This document shows, piece after piece, positions 7,942 through 14,978 of a stretch of 64,000 bases of DNA. Position 1 is the stretch's first letter, and every line of letters begins with the position of its first letter. Position numbers and translations under genes: made by a program. The stretch is from Pseudoalteromonas espejiana DSM 9414 (GTDB taxonomy: Bacteria > Pseudomonadota > Gammaproteobacteria > Enterobacterales > Alteromonadaceae): contig NZ_CP011028.1 in NCBI RefSeq assembly GCF_002221525.1, forward strand, positions 1,809,001-1,873,000, written 5' to 3'. The notes under the pieces were generated by a model that saw nothing but the letters and a program-made list of their open reading frames with translations, searched no databases and was not told where the DNA came from.

Positions 7942-8712
7942 GTGGAAATTAAAAATAACACGGTAGTAATAACCGGTGGCGCACAAGGCTTAGGCTTTGC
8001 AATGGCGCAAAAGTTTGCCCTTATGGGCGCTAACATTGCACTTATAGATATGGCGCAAGAGTTATTAAACACAGCGTGCGAAAAACTAACACAGCTGGAC
8101 GGTGTATCTGGCACTATTAAAGGCTACGCTGCAAACGTAACCGCAGAGAGCGAAGTAGAAAACGTATTTAATACCATTAATAGCGATTTTGGCCACATTG
8201 GTGTGCTTATAAACAACGCCGGTATTTTACGCGACGGCATGTTTATTAAAGCCAAAGACGGCAAAGTGGTTAAAAAAATGTCCCTTGAGCAATTTCAATC
8301 AGTGATTGATGTAAATCTCACTGGCGTATTTTTAGCAGGGCGAGAAGCGGCAAGCCACATGATTGAATCAGGCAAAGGCGGCGTAATTGTTAATATGTCG
8401 AGCGTAGCGCGCGCAGGTAATATAGGACAAACAAACTACGCGGCATCAAAAGCAGGCGTAGTGGCACTTACCACCACATGGGCTAAAGAACTCGGCCGCT
8501 TTGGTATACGCGTAGGCGCTATTGCACCAGGTGTAATAAGCACCGCCATGACCGACGCCATGAAACCCGAAGCCAAACAGCGTATGCTTGCAGTCACACC
8601 CGTAGGGCGCTTAGGTGAAAGCGACGAAATTGCCCATACTGCACAATACATAATCGAAAACGACTTTTTTACCGGTCGCGTGGTAGAGATAGACGGCGGT
8701 ATACGTTTGTAA
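7942..8712 (+). CDS. SDR-family dehydrogenase, probable 2-methyl-3-hydroxybutyryl-CoA dehydrogenase
   Basis: A 256-aa short-chain dehydrogenase starting with GTG after an AGGAGC ribosome-binding site, 9 bp behind mmsB. The cofactor motif is TGGAQGLG, the structural motif NNAG (about residue 91) and the active site is MSSVARAG followed by YAASK. In this operon the likely reaction is NAD-dependent oxidation of 2-methyl-3-hydroxybutyryl-CoA, the step before the thiolase encoded by the first gene. An FabG-like ketoacyl reductase is the alternative, but the context argues against it. It is the last gene of the operon. Confidence 0.85.
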   Translation: MEIKNNTVVITGGAQGLGFAMAQKFALMGANIALIDMAQELLNTACEKLTQLDGVSGTIKGYAANVTAESEVENVFNTINSDFGHIGVLINNAGILRDGMFIKAKDGKVVKKMSLEQFQSVIDVNLTGVFLAGREAASHMIESGKGGVIVNMSSVARAGNIGQTNYAASKAGVVALTTTWAKELGRFGIRVGAIAPGVISTAMTDAMKPEAKQRMLAVTPVGRLGESDEIAHTAQYIIENDFFTGRVVEIDGGIRL

Positions 8713-8786: not shown

Positions 8787-9912
8787 TTATAACCTTGAAA
8801 AAGGGCTAACAACACCGTTGGCACCTTGCTGTAGTACATGGGTAGGATACCCGCTGAATTAAAACGTTGATCATTTTAGCGTTCTAAATAACTCATTAAC
8901 TGCGTTAAAAACTTCTCATATAGATAAACTATATAACTAAGTTTTTGCCTTGTTACTGAGCTATTTATCTGTCGCTATAATTGCTCACTAATTCAATACA
9001 GCGGGTATTATTTGTGTGGTACGCACGTCACTGTGACCTAATTGTGTTTGTACTGTGCGGATATCAGCGCCGCTTTGCAGCAAATGCGTAGCGAAAGAAT
9101 GACGTAAAGTATGAGGGGTAACGTGTTTACTTATATGTGCATCAAAAGCGGCTTTTTTTAACAGCGCGTTGTAATTGCTTTTCATCAATATGATGGCGCC
9201 TTAATTGTTTACTCTCGGGATCAAGACTTAATTTATGTGATGAAAATAAATATTGCCAACCCAGCTGCCTATTGTGGTTTGGATATTTTTTACGTAACAA
9301 ATACGGCATGTACGCACCGCAATACAAAGGGTTTTTAAGATCTAATTGTAGATAACTATCAACTAATTGTATTTGGGAACGTAATTGCGGTGTGGGCTCT
9401 ACGGCAAGGGTTACAACACGATTTTTCTCTCCTTTACCATCCCAAATTCGAATGCAGTTATAGTCAAAGTCAATATCATGTACCCTTAAACGCAGTACTT
9501 CCATTAATCGCATATCACTGCCATAAAGTAATCCACAGGGTAAATAATGCTTTGCAGAGCACACTTTAAAAAAATTATTTATTTCTTGCTGCGTTAAAAC
9601 TACCGGTAGTTTAGTTGCTCGTTTGCTCTTAATAAAACCTAATGATAATGAGAGTGGCTTTTTAATCACTTCTTTAAATAAAAAGCTCAACGCATTTAAG
9701 GCTTGTGTTTGAGTGTTAGGAGCAACATTTTGTTGGTTGACAAGGTGGTTTAAAAAAAGTTCGACCTCATTGTCTCCCATCGTTGTTGGGTGCCTCATAG
9801 AGCTAAAGCGAATAAACGAAGCTATCCAGTATAAATACGCTTTAACGGTACTTTTAGCATAACGCTTTAGATACATCTGTTCTGCTATCATAGTTAAAAA
9901 AGGTGATTTCAT
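8787..9912 (-). pseudogene. intI: Integron integrase IntI, inactivated by a frameshift and a MITE
   Basis: Reading from 9912 (MKSPFLTMIAEQMYLKRYAK), the protein has the integron-integrase core: LLYGSDMRLMEVLRLRV (box I arginine), IWDGKGEKNR and [16 protein letters not shown]. An A7 run (9153-9159 on the plus strand) throws it out of frame; one base fewer restores [20 protein letters not shown] with the His-Xaa-Xaa-Arg motif (TLRHSF) and [11 protein letters not shown]. There the gene is interrupted by a 162-bp MITE. Beyond the MITE the same strand reads THVLQQGANGVVSPFSRL and stops at 8787. The lost residue between TTQI and THV is the catalytic tyrosine. Integrase activity must be absent unless supplied in trans. 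Its divergent orientation to the cassette at 10.13 kb is that of a normal integron. Confidence 0.9.
8847..9008. mobile_element. MITE (about 162 bp) inserted in the 3' end of intI
   Basis: The element is bounded by ATACCCGCTG and its exact inverse CAGCGGGTAT and is an imperfect palindrome over nearly its whole length (for example TAAATAACTCATTAACTG near one end against GTTACTGAGCTATTTA near the other). It encodes nothing. Insertion is shown by integrase coding sequence resuming on the far side in THVLQQGANGV. A 2-bp TA may be the target duplication, but this is not certain. Its core (TAACTGCGTTAAAAACTT ... AAGTTTTTGCCTTGTTA) resembles that of the 29.2-kb MITE. Confidence 0.75.
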
Positions 9913-10130
9913 GATATGAATCTTTAGCAAAAGTTAACTGTATATAGACAGTGCTTATTGTTTTGTCCAATATTACTGATCTCCACCATTTCGGTACATT
10001 TTCACACTGATTAAAAATAATTTTCAGTTAACTAATTGTTTACAGGTGTTTATTTGATGGTTAAGATAAATGCATTGTAATATATGGACATTTGTCGGTT
10101 TATAAAACGACAAATGTCGTAGACAAAATT
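9913..10130. other. intI-cassette intergenic region, expected attI and cassette promoter
   Basis: This stretch between the intI start and the first cassette is where attI, the intI promoter and the cassette promoter Pc should lie. It is strongly AT-rich. I can point to the 3' boundary (core site at 10131) and a strong palindrome (10087-10118), but cannot define the attI accessory sites or a clear promoter by eye. Confidence 0.4.
10087..10118. repeat. Near-perfect 32-bp palindrome next to the attI junction
   Basis: GACATTTGTCG (10087-10097) and its exact reverse complement CGACAAATGTC (10108-10118) flank a 10-base centre (GTTTATAAAA) that itself contains the palindrome TTTATAAA. It lies 13 bp before the cassette boundary. 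It may be an operator, a cruciform site or part of attI; no T-run follows, so it does not look like a terminator. Confidence 0.6.
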
Positions 10131-10131
10131 G

Positions 10132-10745
10132 TTATACATTATGGAAACATATGCTTGAATTCAAAAAAGTAGTTGAGTGGCTCAAATTATCACCTAAGCA
10201 AGCATTTATCATTTTTGTTATTTGTTCGATTCTTCTTTTTGACAAAGGAATAATTATTTCTAAGTTGGGTTTAGAAAAACCAAAGGAGTTGTTTCAGCCA
10301 TATCTCGGTTTAGTGTGGTTATTTGCACTGGCACTTTTATTGGCTGAAGTCTTTGTCCCCACTTACCGAAAATGCATAAAAAAATATAAACAGAGAAAAT
10401 ACTTAAAGCACTGTAAGTCTCACCTTCATCATTTAACTAAGGTTGAGAAAAAAGTATTATGTGAATTTATAGAAAACGACACAAAATCAATAGATGCTCC
10501 GTTATCTGATGGTGTAATACAGGAATTAGCCACTAATAATATAATTCGGCTAGTTGCAACTGTATCGGTTCACAACGACTATTTTGCATACAACATTCAA
10601 CCTTGGGCGTGGAAGTACCTACATGAACATCCACAATTGCTTAAATAATGTATAACAAAACAAATCAACACGGACAAATACTGCTTGGCTTTTGTCACTG
10701 CGTTCCAAAATTATAGCCAAGCACTATTTGCCTGTTATTTAGGCG
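10132..10745 (+). mobile_element. Integron gene cassette 1 (614 bp)
   Basis: The cassette starts after the G of GTTATAC (core site 10131-10137) and ends at the G (10745) of the R' core GTTGAGG. On circularisation the end G would join TTATAC to give GTTATAC, the exact reverse complement of the R'' core GTATAAC (10650-10656). That match confirms both boundaries independently of the gene content. It carries one gene, the SieB-like CDS at 10151, in the orientation expected relative to intI. Confidence 0.85.
10151..10648 (+). CDS. Superinfection-exclusion protein B (SieB)-like membrane protein
   Basis: A 165-aa protein with two transmembrane helices (about residues 17-36 and 52-70, the second LGLVWLFALALLLAEVFV), a basic linker (YRKCIKKYKQRKYLKHCK) and a C-terminal domain. 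That domain reads LTKVEKKVLCEFIEND, then LSDGVIQELATNNIIRLV and ends with FAYNIQPWAWKYLHEHP, the pattern of the SieB superinfection-exclusion family known from phages lambda and P22. In phages SieB acts at the inner membrane to abort infection by related phages. The gene is the sole gene of an integron cassette and its stop lies 1 bp before attC. Function as phage exclusion here is inferred from family resemblance. Confidence 0.7.
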   Translation: MLEFKKVVEWLKLSPKQAFIIFVICSILLFDKGIIISKLGLEKPKELFQPYLGLVWLFALALLLAEVFVPTYRKCIKKYKQRKYLKHCKSHLHHLTKVEKKVLCEFIENDTKSIDAPLSDGVIQELATNNIIRLVATVSVHNDYFAYNIQPWAWKYLHEHPQLLK

Positions 10746-10751
10746 TTGAGG
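10650..10751 (+). repeat. attC: attC recombination site of cassette 1
   Basis: The site begins with R'' GTATAAC and ends with R' GTTGAGG. In between, GGACAAATACTGCTTGGC pairs with GCCAAGCACTATTTGCC (one bulge, one mismatch) around a loop of about 29 bases, giving the hairpin with imperfect pairing that IntI recognises on the bottom strand. Length of about 102 bp is in the normal range for attC sites of marine Gammaproteobacteria. Confidence 0.85.
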
Positions 10752-10752
10752 C

Positions 10753-12595
10753 TGTAGAATTACTCTTTTTAAGAACGTATACAACTATTCTTGGTTGGTT
10801 GTTTTTTAACCTTGAATCCATCTGTTCGCTGTGATCTAATAGATATTATTCACTCACGGTAGATTGTTATGGCTAACTTCAAGCCTGACTTATCCTGTCA
10901 AAATAAATTCATTCCTATCAATTTCGCTGAGCAAATTTTGCCAGGCACATTTGAATATGCCCTTTGTTATATCGTCGAAAATAAACTCGATTTATCGGGC
11001 TTTGACGCGTGGTATAACAACGATAAAACGGGCGCTGCTGCGTATTCGCCTTCGGTAATGCTAAAGATTATTTTACTGGGTTATGCACATGGTTTTATCA
11101 GTAGCCGACGAATTGCTAAAGCGTGTGAGACGAACATTTTATTTATGAGTGTGTCGGGAGATATCCAGCCGCATTACACATCAATAGCGGGCTTCGTGGC
11201 TAAAATGCATGAACAGATTGAGCCACTTTTTACGCAAGTGCTGATGATATGTGATGAAGAAGGCTTGATAGGCCGTAATATGTTTGCCATTGATGGGTGT
11301 AAATTAAAGTCCAATGCGAGTAAAGAGTGGAGTGGCACATTCGATGAGTTAGGCCGCAAAAAAGCAAAACTAGAACGCGCAAGCAAACGTATTATTGAAC
11401 GCCACCAATCACAAGATGGACTGAGTGAAGAGTTGATAACTCAGGATTTAAAACAAAAAGAAAAGCTGGATAAAAGTGCAGATAAAATTACCTAGTTCTT
11501 AGCCACTCACAAAGAAAAAACAGGCAGTAAAAGCAAGCCAGTTAAAAGTAATATCACTGACCCTGATAGCGCGAAGATGACGACCTCAAAACGGACAATC
11601 CAAGGCTATAACGGCATAGCGATAAACGATGACAAACATCAAATCATTCTACAAGCACAAGCGTGGGGCTCAGTGGGTGAACAACAAACTCTACAGCCAG
11701 GTGTTAAGCAATTAAAACAGCAACTCGATAAATTGAACACTGACAAGCTCAAAGACAAACATACGATTAAATTCACCGCAGATAGTGGGTTTAACAGCGA
11801 AGTGAACCTTGAATATTTGGCGAAAAGTGGGTTTGATACCTACATTGCGGATAATCAGTTTAGAAAACGAAATCCGCTGTTTAAAGACAGTGAAACATAC
11901 GAAACGGAGCAAGAGAAACGCCGGCTAAAACGCAGTAAAGGCAAGCCACGGTTATTTACCTCAGAGGGTTTTCATTATGATGAAAAAACTCAAACCTGCC
12001 GCTGCCCCGCAGGTAACGATATGTGGCAAAGTGGTATAAATGTAAAAAGTCATAACCAGCAATACACGCGATTCTGCGGTTACTTAAAAGACTGTAAAAC
12101 CTGCCCGCTACAGCAGCAATGCATGCGAAAACCACCGATAGACAGGGGACGACAAGTTCAGTTTATAAATAATGAATCACGCAAAAAGCTGAGCTATGTA
12201 GACAAAATGAAAGTAAAAATAGACAGCCCAATCGGACGACGACAATACAGTAAGCGATTAGGCTGTATTGAACCCGTGTTCGGCAATATTACCGTCAACA
12301 AGGGCATGAATAAATTGACCTTACGGGGTCAAACGAAAGTTAATACGCAATGGCAACTGTATTGCCTTGTTCATAATATAGAAAACTGCAAAACACGATG
12401 CATTAAGAAGGGGAAGCCCTTTTAACCTAATAAAAGCCACTCAACCACTCGTAATCCCTTCCAAAACGCCAATTTAAACAACACAAACACTTCTTTATAT
12501 ACTGCGTAAAAATACAATAATCGATTGAACCAAAATAGGAACTCAGCTATGGTTTGTTTATTAATAAAAACAAATAAAAAACGAGTTAATCTACA
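10753..12595 (+). mobile_element. IS1182-type insertion sequence (1,843 bp)
   Basis: The ends are imperfect inverted repeats: TGTAGAATTACTC on the left and GAGTTAATCTACA on the right. A GGC triplet at 10750-10752 and again at 12596-12598 could be a 3-bp target duplication. It contains one transposase gene with an in-frame amber codon. Insertion is directly after the attC of cassette 1. Family assignment rests on the transposase. Confidence 0.75.
10869..12425 (+). pseudogene. IS1182-family transposase interrupted by one amber codon
   Basis: Two open segments (10869-11495 and 11577-12425) are in the same frame and are separated by a single TAG (11493-11495); reading through gives about 518 aa. 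The N-terminal half has the DUF772-type region (YSPSVMLKIILLGYAHGFIS) and MFAIDGCKLKSNASKEWSGT. The C-terminal half has GYNGIAINDDKHQIILQA, TADSGFNSEVNLEYL, cysteine-rich CRCPAGNDMW and CPLQQQCMR, and GRRQYSKRLGCIEPVFGNI. These are marks of IS1182-type DDE transposases. Unless the amber codon is suppressed the element cannot move on its own. Confidence 0.85.
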
Positions 12596-13064: not shown

Positions 13065-13292
13065 GACACCCAACCTAAATTTTGCACTTTTCGAAGTTAG
13101 AGGTTAGCCTTTATTTAGTACGAAAAATAAGCAGGGCGTCTTATGGCTATCGCAAGAAAGCGTCAAGTAAGTTTGGTTGATACAAAACACTACCATTGTA
13201 TTTCGTGTTGCGTGCGACGTGCATTTTTATGTGGGGAAGACCGTTTTACTGGTCAATCTTACGAGCATCGGCGAGGGAAAACATATAAGAAA
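13065..13292 (+). pseudogene. Truncated REP-associated transposase element, copy 1
   Basis: This copy has the element's leader, starting GACACCCAACC and containing GCAGGGCGTC just before the ATG at 13143, followed by the first 45 codons of the transposase ([20 protein letters not shown] ... QSYEHRRG, to 13277). The rest is deleted and a new leader copy begins at 13293. GACACCC near the start and GGGCGTC before the ATG form a short inverted repeat. Confidence 0.75.
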
Positions 13293-13318
13293 GACACCCA
13301 ACCTAAATTTTGCACTTT
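13293..13318 (+). repeat. Orphan leader repeat of the transposase element
   Basis: GACACCCAACCTAAATTTTG followed by CACTT is identical to the start of copy 1 (13065) and near-identical to the starts at 13358 and 14898. It is not followed by coding sequence and marks the scar of a deletion or a minimal remnant. Confidence 0.65.
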
Positions 13319-13357
13319 GCGTACTCCTAGATTCTAATTGGAAGTATAAATAAACAA

Positions 13358-14410
13358 GACACCCATCCTAAATATTGCACTTACGCACTTAGAGGCTAGC
13401 TTTTATTTAGTCCAAAAAAGCAAGCAGGGTGTCTTATGGCTATTGCATGAAAGCGTCAAGTTAGTTTGGTTGATACAAAACACTATAACTGTATTTCTCG
13501 GTGTGTTCGTCGTGCATTTTTATGTGGGGAAGACCGTTTTACTGGTCAATCTTACGAGCATAGACGAGGGTGGGTTGAAGATAAGTTACTTGAATTAGCG
13601 AAGGTATTTTGTATTGATGTATGTGCTTATGCCGTAATGAGCAATCACACCCATTTAGTCTTGTATGTTGATGATAAAAAAGCAAATAGACTGAATGATA
13701 AAGCGATTGTAATTCGCTGGCATAAACTCTGTAAAGGCACATTGTTAACGCAAAAATACATTCAAGGTGAAAAGTTAAGTAAGGTTGAGGTCATCTTTTT
13801 CAATCAAACGGTTAAACAATATCGCGAACGTTTAGCAAGTATCAGCTGGTTTATGCGCCTATTAAATGAAGACATTGCGCGCAGAGCAAATAAAGAAGAT
13901 AACTGCACAGGACGCTTCAGGGAAGGTAGATTCAAATCGCAAGCATTATTAGATGAAGCCGCACTAGCAGCGTGTATAGCGTATGTAGATTTAAACCCAA
14001 TAAGAGCTAAAATGGCTAACACACCAGAAGAGTCAGATCATACCAGTGTGCAAAATCGAATTACAAGCGCGGCAGTTGGTAAACAACCTAAGCAGTTACT
14101 CCGATTTGCAGGTATGCCTCGTCAAGTTATGCCTAAAGGGCTGCCATTTGAGCTTAAATCGTACCTTGAACTCGTTGAGCTGACAGGGCGAATAATGCGG
14201 GAGGACAAACGCGAGCATATTGATAATATAACCCTTCCTTTGCTAGAAAGGCTTAATATATCACCAGAAAACTGGTTAAAACTCACCACACAATTTACAC
14301 GCGTATTTCATGGTGCAGTATGCAGGCCCAAATCACAAGTAAGCTACTGTGAAAATTTAAAGCGCAAACGGCGTTCAAATATTAGCAACTGCGAAAAGCT
14401 ACTCGCATAA
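13358..14410 (+). pseudogene. REP-associated (Y1) transposase with stop at codon 5, copy 2
   Basis: The leader at 13358 (GACACCCATCC ... GCAGGGTGTC) precedes ATG at 13436, but the fifth codon is TGA (13448-13450) where copy 1 has AGA. After it the frame is open to 14410. The protein has the Y1_Tnp signature: [29 protein letters not shown] with the HUH motif (His-Thr-His), GRFREGRFKSQALLD and YVDLNPIRAKMA. Translation could restart at TTG 13466, giving 314 aa, which would keep the HUH motif; so silence is likely but not proven. GACACCC/GGGTGTC in the leader form an inverted repeat. Confidence 0.8.
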
Positions 14411-14436
14411 ATCAAAAACCACTTAGTAAAAGTTAA

Positions 14437-14459
14437 AACTGCAATTTTGCAGTTATTTT
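14437..14459 (+). terminator. Hairpin with T-rich tail after the Y1 transposase
   Basis: AACTGCAA and TTGCAGTT form a perfect 8-bp stem with a 2-base loop, followed by ATTTT. It lies about 27 bp after the transposase stop codon. It could instead be the element's own 3' hairpin. Confidence 0.55.
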
Positions 14460-14541
14460 CATTTTTGAAATTTAGATCTAAGAAAGCTAGTGACTTATTT
14501 ATTAGATGAAATGAAAAGTGACCCAGCAAGAAGAGATAAGT

Positions 14542-14610
14542 TCTGAACCTGATTGGCAAATTTAGTTGCACATATTTGTTTGTAAATTAAGCTGGTTTCA
14601 CTTTTAGTTC
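14542..14610 (+). repeat. Direct repeat, copy A, flanking the 85-aa ORF
   Basis: Sequence containing AACCTGATTGGCAAATTT, TTTGTTTGTAAATTAAGCTG and GTTTCACTTTTAGTT is repeated, with a shorter middle, at 14991-15049. The block is itself an imperfect inverted repeat (AACC ... GGTT). Confidence 0.6.
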
Positions 14611-14630
14611 GTTTCAAGACGAGTAAACAA

Positions 14631-14888
14631 ATGAATAAATGCCGTAAGTCGTGCGTCAATATAGCTGTTGCCTCGTTAATTTTTTCGTTAGTTGTTTCTG
14701 TAACGATGACGGTGCTAGATTGGAGTGCAAATCCGAACAACCTATTTTATAGCCAAGAGACGACCAACTGGGGGGTTCTGCTTCAAACATTCGGCAGTTG
14801 GTTCTTGCCGCTGTTGCCTGTTGTAATAATTTCGCTCAGTATCTTGTTCTATTTAGTATCAAAGGTATATTCATATGCCAGTAAATAA
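14631..14888 (+). CDS. Small hypothetical two-helix membrane protein
   Basis: An 85-aa protein with two predicted transmembrane helices: about residues 10-29 (NIAVASLIFSLVVSVTMTVL) and about 55-77 (SWFLPLLPVVIISLSILFYL). No known family is recognised and the ribosome-binding site is weak. It lies between two direct repeats and upstream of another transposase-leader remnant, so it may be a passenger gene of the mobile-element region. It may also be a chance ORF, although its hydrophobic pattern looks real. Confidence 0.45.
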   Translation: MNKCRKSCVNIAVASLIFSLVVSVTMTVLDWSANPNNLFYSQETTNWGVLLQTFGSWFLPLLPVVIISLSILFYLVSKVYSYASK

Positions 14889-14897
14889 AACAAATAA

Positions 14898-14978
14898 GAC
14901 ATCCAACCTAAATTTTCACTTTACACACTTAGAGGCTAGCTTTTGTTTAATGTATAAAACAAGCAGCGTGCCTTATGA
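14898..14978 (+). repeat. Transposase-leader remnant, copy 4
   Basis: GACATCCAACCTAAATTTTC, then CACTTAGAGGCTAGCTTTTG and AAGCAGCGTGCCTTATGAC, match the leaders at 13065 and 13358 up to the transposase ATG, after which similarity ends. It is a truncated copy of the same element. Confidence 0.65.

Follow-up and report, generated by a model that had tools for sequence, protein, structure and literature searches.

The fitness cost carried by an active integrase (PMC3510236) and the prediction that 43% and 46% of the IntI proteins of chromosomal integrons are inactive (PMC3108266) together make a dead integrase an ordinary finding, and the cost is a possible reason why it is tolerated or favoured. 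In Xanthomonas, intI has repeatedly been inactivated in a lineage-specific manner (PMC12444791). The locus described here resembles such chromosomal integrons, in which a frameshift, a stop or a deletion disrupts intI while the platform is kept (PMC3108266; PMC12444791). On the other hand, as far as the accessible parts of these two papers go, the known cases are lineage-specific or concern groups of strains which share a deletion or stop and usually also the array, whereas in Pseudoalteromonas one insertion is found across species, IntI types and two loci. The integrase of Shewanella corallii A687 likewise lacks the conserved tyrosine (Y312C), but, according to the accessible part of the report, by a substitution in a single strain and not by an insertion across species (PMC9229058). 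While class 1 integrons in A. baylyi were inactivated by new frameshifts (PMC3510236), in Pseudoalteromonas the break itself seems to travel. In the literature searched, by titles and the beginnings of abstracts and mostly outside subscription papers, neither an integrase break shared across species and loci nor the reversal of one was found.

The window, a stretch of 64,000 nucleotides of the Pseudoalteromonas espejiana DSM 9414 genome (G000 in the following), contains an interrupted intI gene between a chromosomal gene and a cassette array, with the following features:

7942..8712, plus strand: flanking chromosomal SDR gene, marker of locus 1
8787..8846, minus strand: intI tail with CCT, the THVLQQGANGVVSPFSRL codons and the stop
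8847..9008, minus strand: MITE-like hairpin element of 162 bp at the tyrosine codon, with perfect terminal inverted repeats of 10 bp
9009..9188, minus strand: second frame of intI with the HTLRH and LGH boxes, its TTQI end at the element (TIGR02249, 99 bits)
9145..9912, minus strand: 5' part of intI (type I) with the Arg box and the IntI-specific domain (TIGR02249, 340 bits)
9153..9159, minus strand: A7 run, frame break
9931..10150, no strand assigned: putative attI/promoter region 5' of intI, assigned by position and similarity
10131..10751, plus strand: first cassette
10131-10137: start core GTTATAC of the first cassette
10151-10648: SieB-like ORF in the first cassette, superinfection-exclusion protein (PF14163, 108 bits)
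10650-10751: attC of the first cassette, outer box GTATAAC at 10650-10656

An earlier note on this DNA had read the minus-strand gene (9912-8787) as an IntI-type integron integrase, which the TIGR02249 model bears out. The first of its two pieces (9930-9145) scores 340 bits over model positions 1-250 against a cut-off of 265, the second (9188-8991) 99 bits over positions 240-302, and jointly they span positions 1-302 of 315. The single first piece covers its part of the model in one stretch, including the residues which we take to make up the IntI-specific extra domain. The note's frameshift is found where the gene switches frame at the A7 run, a region read in a single frame by three other carriers of the insertion (G005, G015 and G089). 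Its inverted-repeat element directly after TTQI is equally present, and the minus strand runs from TTQI through this element into a CCT codon, THVLQQGANGVVSPFSRL and the stop ending at 8787. Eight of eight element-free rows of the alignment read TTQI-YTHV at this site, which identifies the interrupted codon as that of the catalytic tyrosine, as had been proposed, and supplies the empty-site alleles which the note had suggested looking for in relatives. As the end of the element reads SGY in the frame of the tail, behind an in-frame stop, a tyrosine codon lies one codon off, where it shares no open frame with the remainder of the gene. With the element at the tyrosine codon and the frameshift, the catalytic tyrosine does not stand in one open frame, and the gene is therefore an IntI pseudogene rather than a working member of the family. 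A further change beside the Arg box, GSDMRL instead of the GSGMRL of type I relatives, is likely additional damage. The 5' part is 95-96% identical in DNA to element-free G068, G084 and G001 (600 bp compared). In the carrier G005, residues 5-308 of the encoded protein align to the IntI4 structure PDB 2a3v, presumably of Vibrio cholerae, with 369 bits, and depart from it right at the tyrosine. Other IntI proteins above the cut-off are absent from G000, which holds seven weaker matches of at most 79 bits; on this ground a freezing of its cassette array is predicted and plausible. The carriers G034, G090 and G091 contain a second full-length open IntI.

The integron platform of the window comprises the putative attI region, which shares 94-97% identity with its counterparts in four type I relatives (L030, L031, L032 and L173), and a cassette with its attC. 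The outer box of the attC and the start core of the cassette complement each other exactly, and the hairpin arms of the attC (10670-10690 and 10715-10735) are 86% complementary. A home-made attC scan returned this one convincing site, the others being judged by eye to be RAYT repeats or noise, and a close match to it elsewhere in G000 was not found (best other E 0.02). PADLOC gave no match for four ORFs of the array region, the SieB-like one among them. Behind the first cassette the array is eroded. It contains an IS1182-family transposase split into two ORFs, each under the family cut-off (10869-12425), an ORF with a resemblance to 8xMP that stays below the cut-off of that family, and, at 13466-14407, a RAYT-like transposase of 29 bits, below its cut-off of 80. 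The latter lies in a RAYT-like region of the old array (13089-14959), where its flanking sequences are repeated and 13143-13337 holds a partial copy.

Bacterial MITEs are known for terminal inverted repeats, the lack of an ORF, folding as a full-length hairpin, many copies and short target duplications. The element at the tyrosine codon shares the first four of these traits. It has terminal inverted repeats, contains no ORF of at least 60 amino acids, is multicopy with 20 other matches in the G000 genome and folds as a single full-length hairpin with -31 kcal/mol against a shuffle mean of -11.4 (z -7.2). A scan of the window with Rfam at the gathering cut-off gave no match. The element differs from known MITEs in that, among the matches listed, its intI lineage has no close full-length copies outside intI. 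Covariation gives the hairpin no support, with a change on both sides in 1 of 55 pairs, and conservation of the hairpin was rejected on this ground as a cause of the low divergence of the element described below.

The fossil of the earlier note, in the sense of a private and old break, is not supported by comparison with other genomes. A pattern of the left junction retrieved the element, with an identical codon position and orientation, in eight of 108 Pseudoalteromonas genomes (state B: G000, G005, G008, G015, G034, G089, G090 and G091), a count which diverged copies may escape since the degenerate pattern was built from copies already seen. In three carriers (G005, G015 and G089) the gene stays open as far as the element, and in the remaining five (G000, G008, G034, G090 and G091) it carries further damage. 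When the 3' half of the element with the tail was used as query, 13 places in 12 genomes spanned both among the best candidates, at most seven per genome; they are the eight state B loci, one remnant in G005 and four loci of a second arrangement (state A). A right-junction pattern was applied to 395 genomes of the family, which include 32 from Pseudoalteromonas. It matched five genomes of this genus and two of other genera (G116 and G193), the latter with three mismatches each and taken as chance; the backwards control matched one genome. The insertion is also carried by Pseudoalteromonas sp. CuT4-3 (NZ_CP142031.1, 204028-204300), the only one of ten matching records among 72,556 of a plasmid collection to cover at least 80% of the query. 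Its intI holds a nonsense codon, is absent from the PLSDB gene table, which omits pseudogenes, and by eye looks like a type IV/II hybrid, and its element is distinct from all eight state B elements. A gene annotated as a NucS-domain endonuclease lies near it (L186:930-2495). Pseudoalteromonas sp. SR43-2 has a tyrosine-less protein of the insertion form, which bears the name integron integrase and differs from the G015 protein, the only open one of type III. Carriage by phages or viruses was considered and rejected, as the phage collection gave no match and viral contigs no exact junction.

State B is found at two chromosomal loci: locus 1 beside the SDR gene (G000, G008, G034, G090 and G091), and a second locus (G005, G015 and G089). 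In G005 this second locus belongs to a contig of 784 kb separate from the main one. The 5' parts of the interrupted genes belong to at least four types of 58-72% mutual identity, with type I in G000, type II in G005, G034 and G090, type III in G008 and G015 and type IV in G089, most of the 5' part being lost in G091. Identity tables covered 20 loci and the 5' tree 18 of these, G090 and G091 being left out because of deletions in their 5' parts. Between types, identity climbs to about 80-97% no earlier than ~120 bp ahead of the element, for example in G005-G000, G034-G000 and G089-G005, or not until its very edge. The latter is the case for G005 and G015, and while the element of these two is identical, the tail is 98%, the flank 95% and the 5' part 66% identical.

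Twelve intI-borne elements form one side of a branch with support of 100/99 against 12 copies from elsewhere, while the intI 5' parts of six of the eight carriers are rejected as a clade (p-AU 3e-8, in a tree with a long-branch warning). Of the 28 pairs of state B carriers, 13 share a locus and could be compared by a neighbouring gene. At locus 1 (ten pairs) element distances of 0.025-0.10 stand against a dS of 0.24-0.94 in the adjacent SDR gene, and at the second locus (three pairs) distances of 0-0.025 against a neighbour-gene dS of 0.14-0.90, so that element divergence (0-0.10) lies far under neighbour dS (0.14-0.94) in 13 of 13. Given this divergence of the neighbouring genes, the species did not inherit the break together. 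The type II intI 5' parts probably moved as well, to judge from their dS of 0.16-0.24 against 0.60-0.69 for SDR in the three pairs with G034; the type II pairs that do not involve G034, also three, have a smaller gap (0.05-0.23 against 0.10-0.44), and no intI/SDR gap is seen in three element-free control pairs from other types. Compared with the element, the 57 bp on its left show higher divergence in 23 of 28 pairs and the tail of 57 bp in seven of 28 (each p<0.05, uncorrected, with pairs that are non-independent), and the region of low divergence has almost the same limits as the element. In state B, five of the eight tails code for one and the same live peptide, with none but synonymous differences among them, which indicates that their divergence took place under translation, before they were joined to the element.

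The state A loci (G001, G059, G086 and G097) have an intI which runs through TTQIYTHV to a stop. Immediately after this stop stands an element that lacks its first ~40 bases, followed by another intI tail, whose CC junction is the same. By eye, an ATAAA is shared at the join. As the element part is shorter in G001 and G059, the 122-nt slice taken as element there includes a few bases of intI tail. Two of the four genes are open (G059 and G097); that of G086 contains a nonsense codon, and that of G001 is disrupted internally, with a stop. State A elements form no clade of their own, and the arrangement may have arisen once or more. Since the elements of state B are complete end to end, the order from B to A is the simpler one, and we infer that state B came first. 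Further places (L160-L164) hold remnants in which the element is partial and the tail decayed, two of them in the G000 genome. One of these (L160, contig C2, ~578 kb) is an integron remnant of element end and intI tail only, the other (L161, contig C2, ~360 kb) combines an attI-like region with a 3' portion of the element and with a decayed tail.

With a probability of roughly 0.7, we consider that a single MITE insertion in intI was carried across species and loci by homologous recombination, that the integrase was killed each time, and that some integrases were rebuilt. A MITE-type hairpin would once have entered the tyrosine codon of a Pseudoalteromonas intI, and the dead 3' end, composed of the element and some flanking intI, would have been transferred across species and between the two chromosomal integron loci, with homologous recombination acting on the conserved terminal section of intI and on the tail. 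Each integrase joined by this end would have lost its activity; RecA and natural transformation are candidate means of the transfer. What is observed is the single clade of elements and the mosaic intI flanks. In some hosts a join at a match of five nucleotides would later have made the 3' end of intI complete again, leaving behind the truncated element and second tail of the observed junction. As one origin accounts for all copies, a selection for striking the tyrosine residue cannot be inferred. A point that sits tightly with ordinary recombination is the tail being more diverged than the element in seven of 28 pairs, which requires the exchange to reach near the element.

The boldest possibility, and an unlikely one, is that the element homes: it would be copied from one intI to another and nowhere else, through repair of a break or through conversion at the empty tyrosine codon, with very short flanking tracts. 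Such a process would agree with the valley of low divergence that nearly coincides with the element, with tails that differ only synonymously and with the finding, among the matches listed, of no other close full-length copy, although ordinary recombination with flanks scrambled over many transfers could yield the low-divergence stretch just as a homing-like process could. If homing were true, the element would be a transferable off-switch for integron integrases and state A an escape in which the host rebuilds its integrase.

That instead one MITE family repeatedly entered the same codon as a favoured target is decidedly unlikely. The near coextension of low divergence and element would agree with independent insertions, as would the abundance of the family in G000 and the TNA-type duplications of 3 bp (TTA/TTA or TAA/TAA) seen by eye at several copies elsewhere. 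However, the best match of at least 140 bp outside intI in the 108 genomes is 83% identical (matches listed, E <= 1e-25, best at most seven per genome), so that no closer donor appears among them, shorter pieces reaching 86% over 98 bp and, among the best at most seven per genome, 90% over 67 bp. Orientation and left junction are moreover common to all eight carriers, the intI-borne elements are one clade, and the two bases directly past the element are CC in seven carriers and CA in G091, with a clean duplication in none. In the window, the flanking triplets TAA and TCC form no target site duplication, and the original insertion is not readable from them.

It is very improbable that the tyrosine-less IntI is a retained protein that only binds DNA. 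The three genes open up to the element have a dN/dS of 0.05-0.18 against relatives, and the SR43-2 protein of the same form is filed as an integron integrase, but the low dN/dS may predate a recent join, five of the eight genes are broken elsewhere too and that of CuT4-3 has its nonsense codon. Least credible of all is a true fossil, a single ancient insertion inherited vertically and decaying in place, which would account for the further damage in five carriers and for the decayed remnants at L160-L164, but as sole history is already contradicted by the element divergence far under neighbour dS, the several types of 5' halves, the three otherwise open genes and the five tails with synonymous differences only.

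While integrase loss is usually told as a series of separate, lineage-specific accidents, here one break is found in several species and appears to have been undone in some lineages. The SR43-2 entry is a warning that an IntI protein without its tyrosine can be filed as an integron integrase. A break that is shared and apparently reversed makes the switching off and on of chromosomal integrons by gene exchange testable in a cultivable marine genus.
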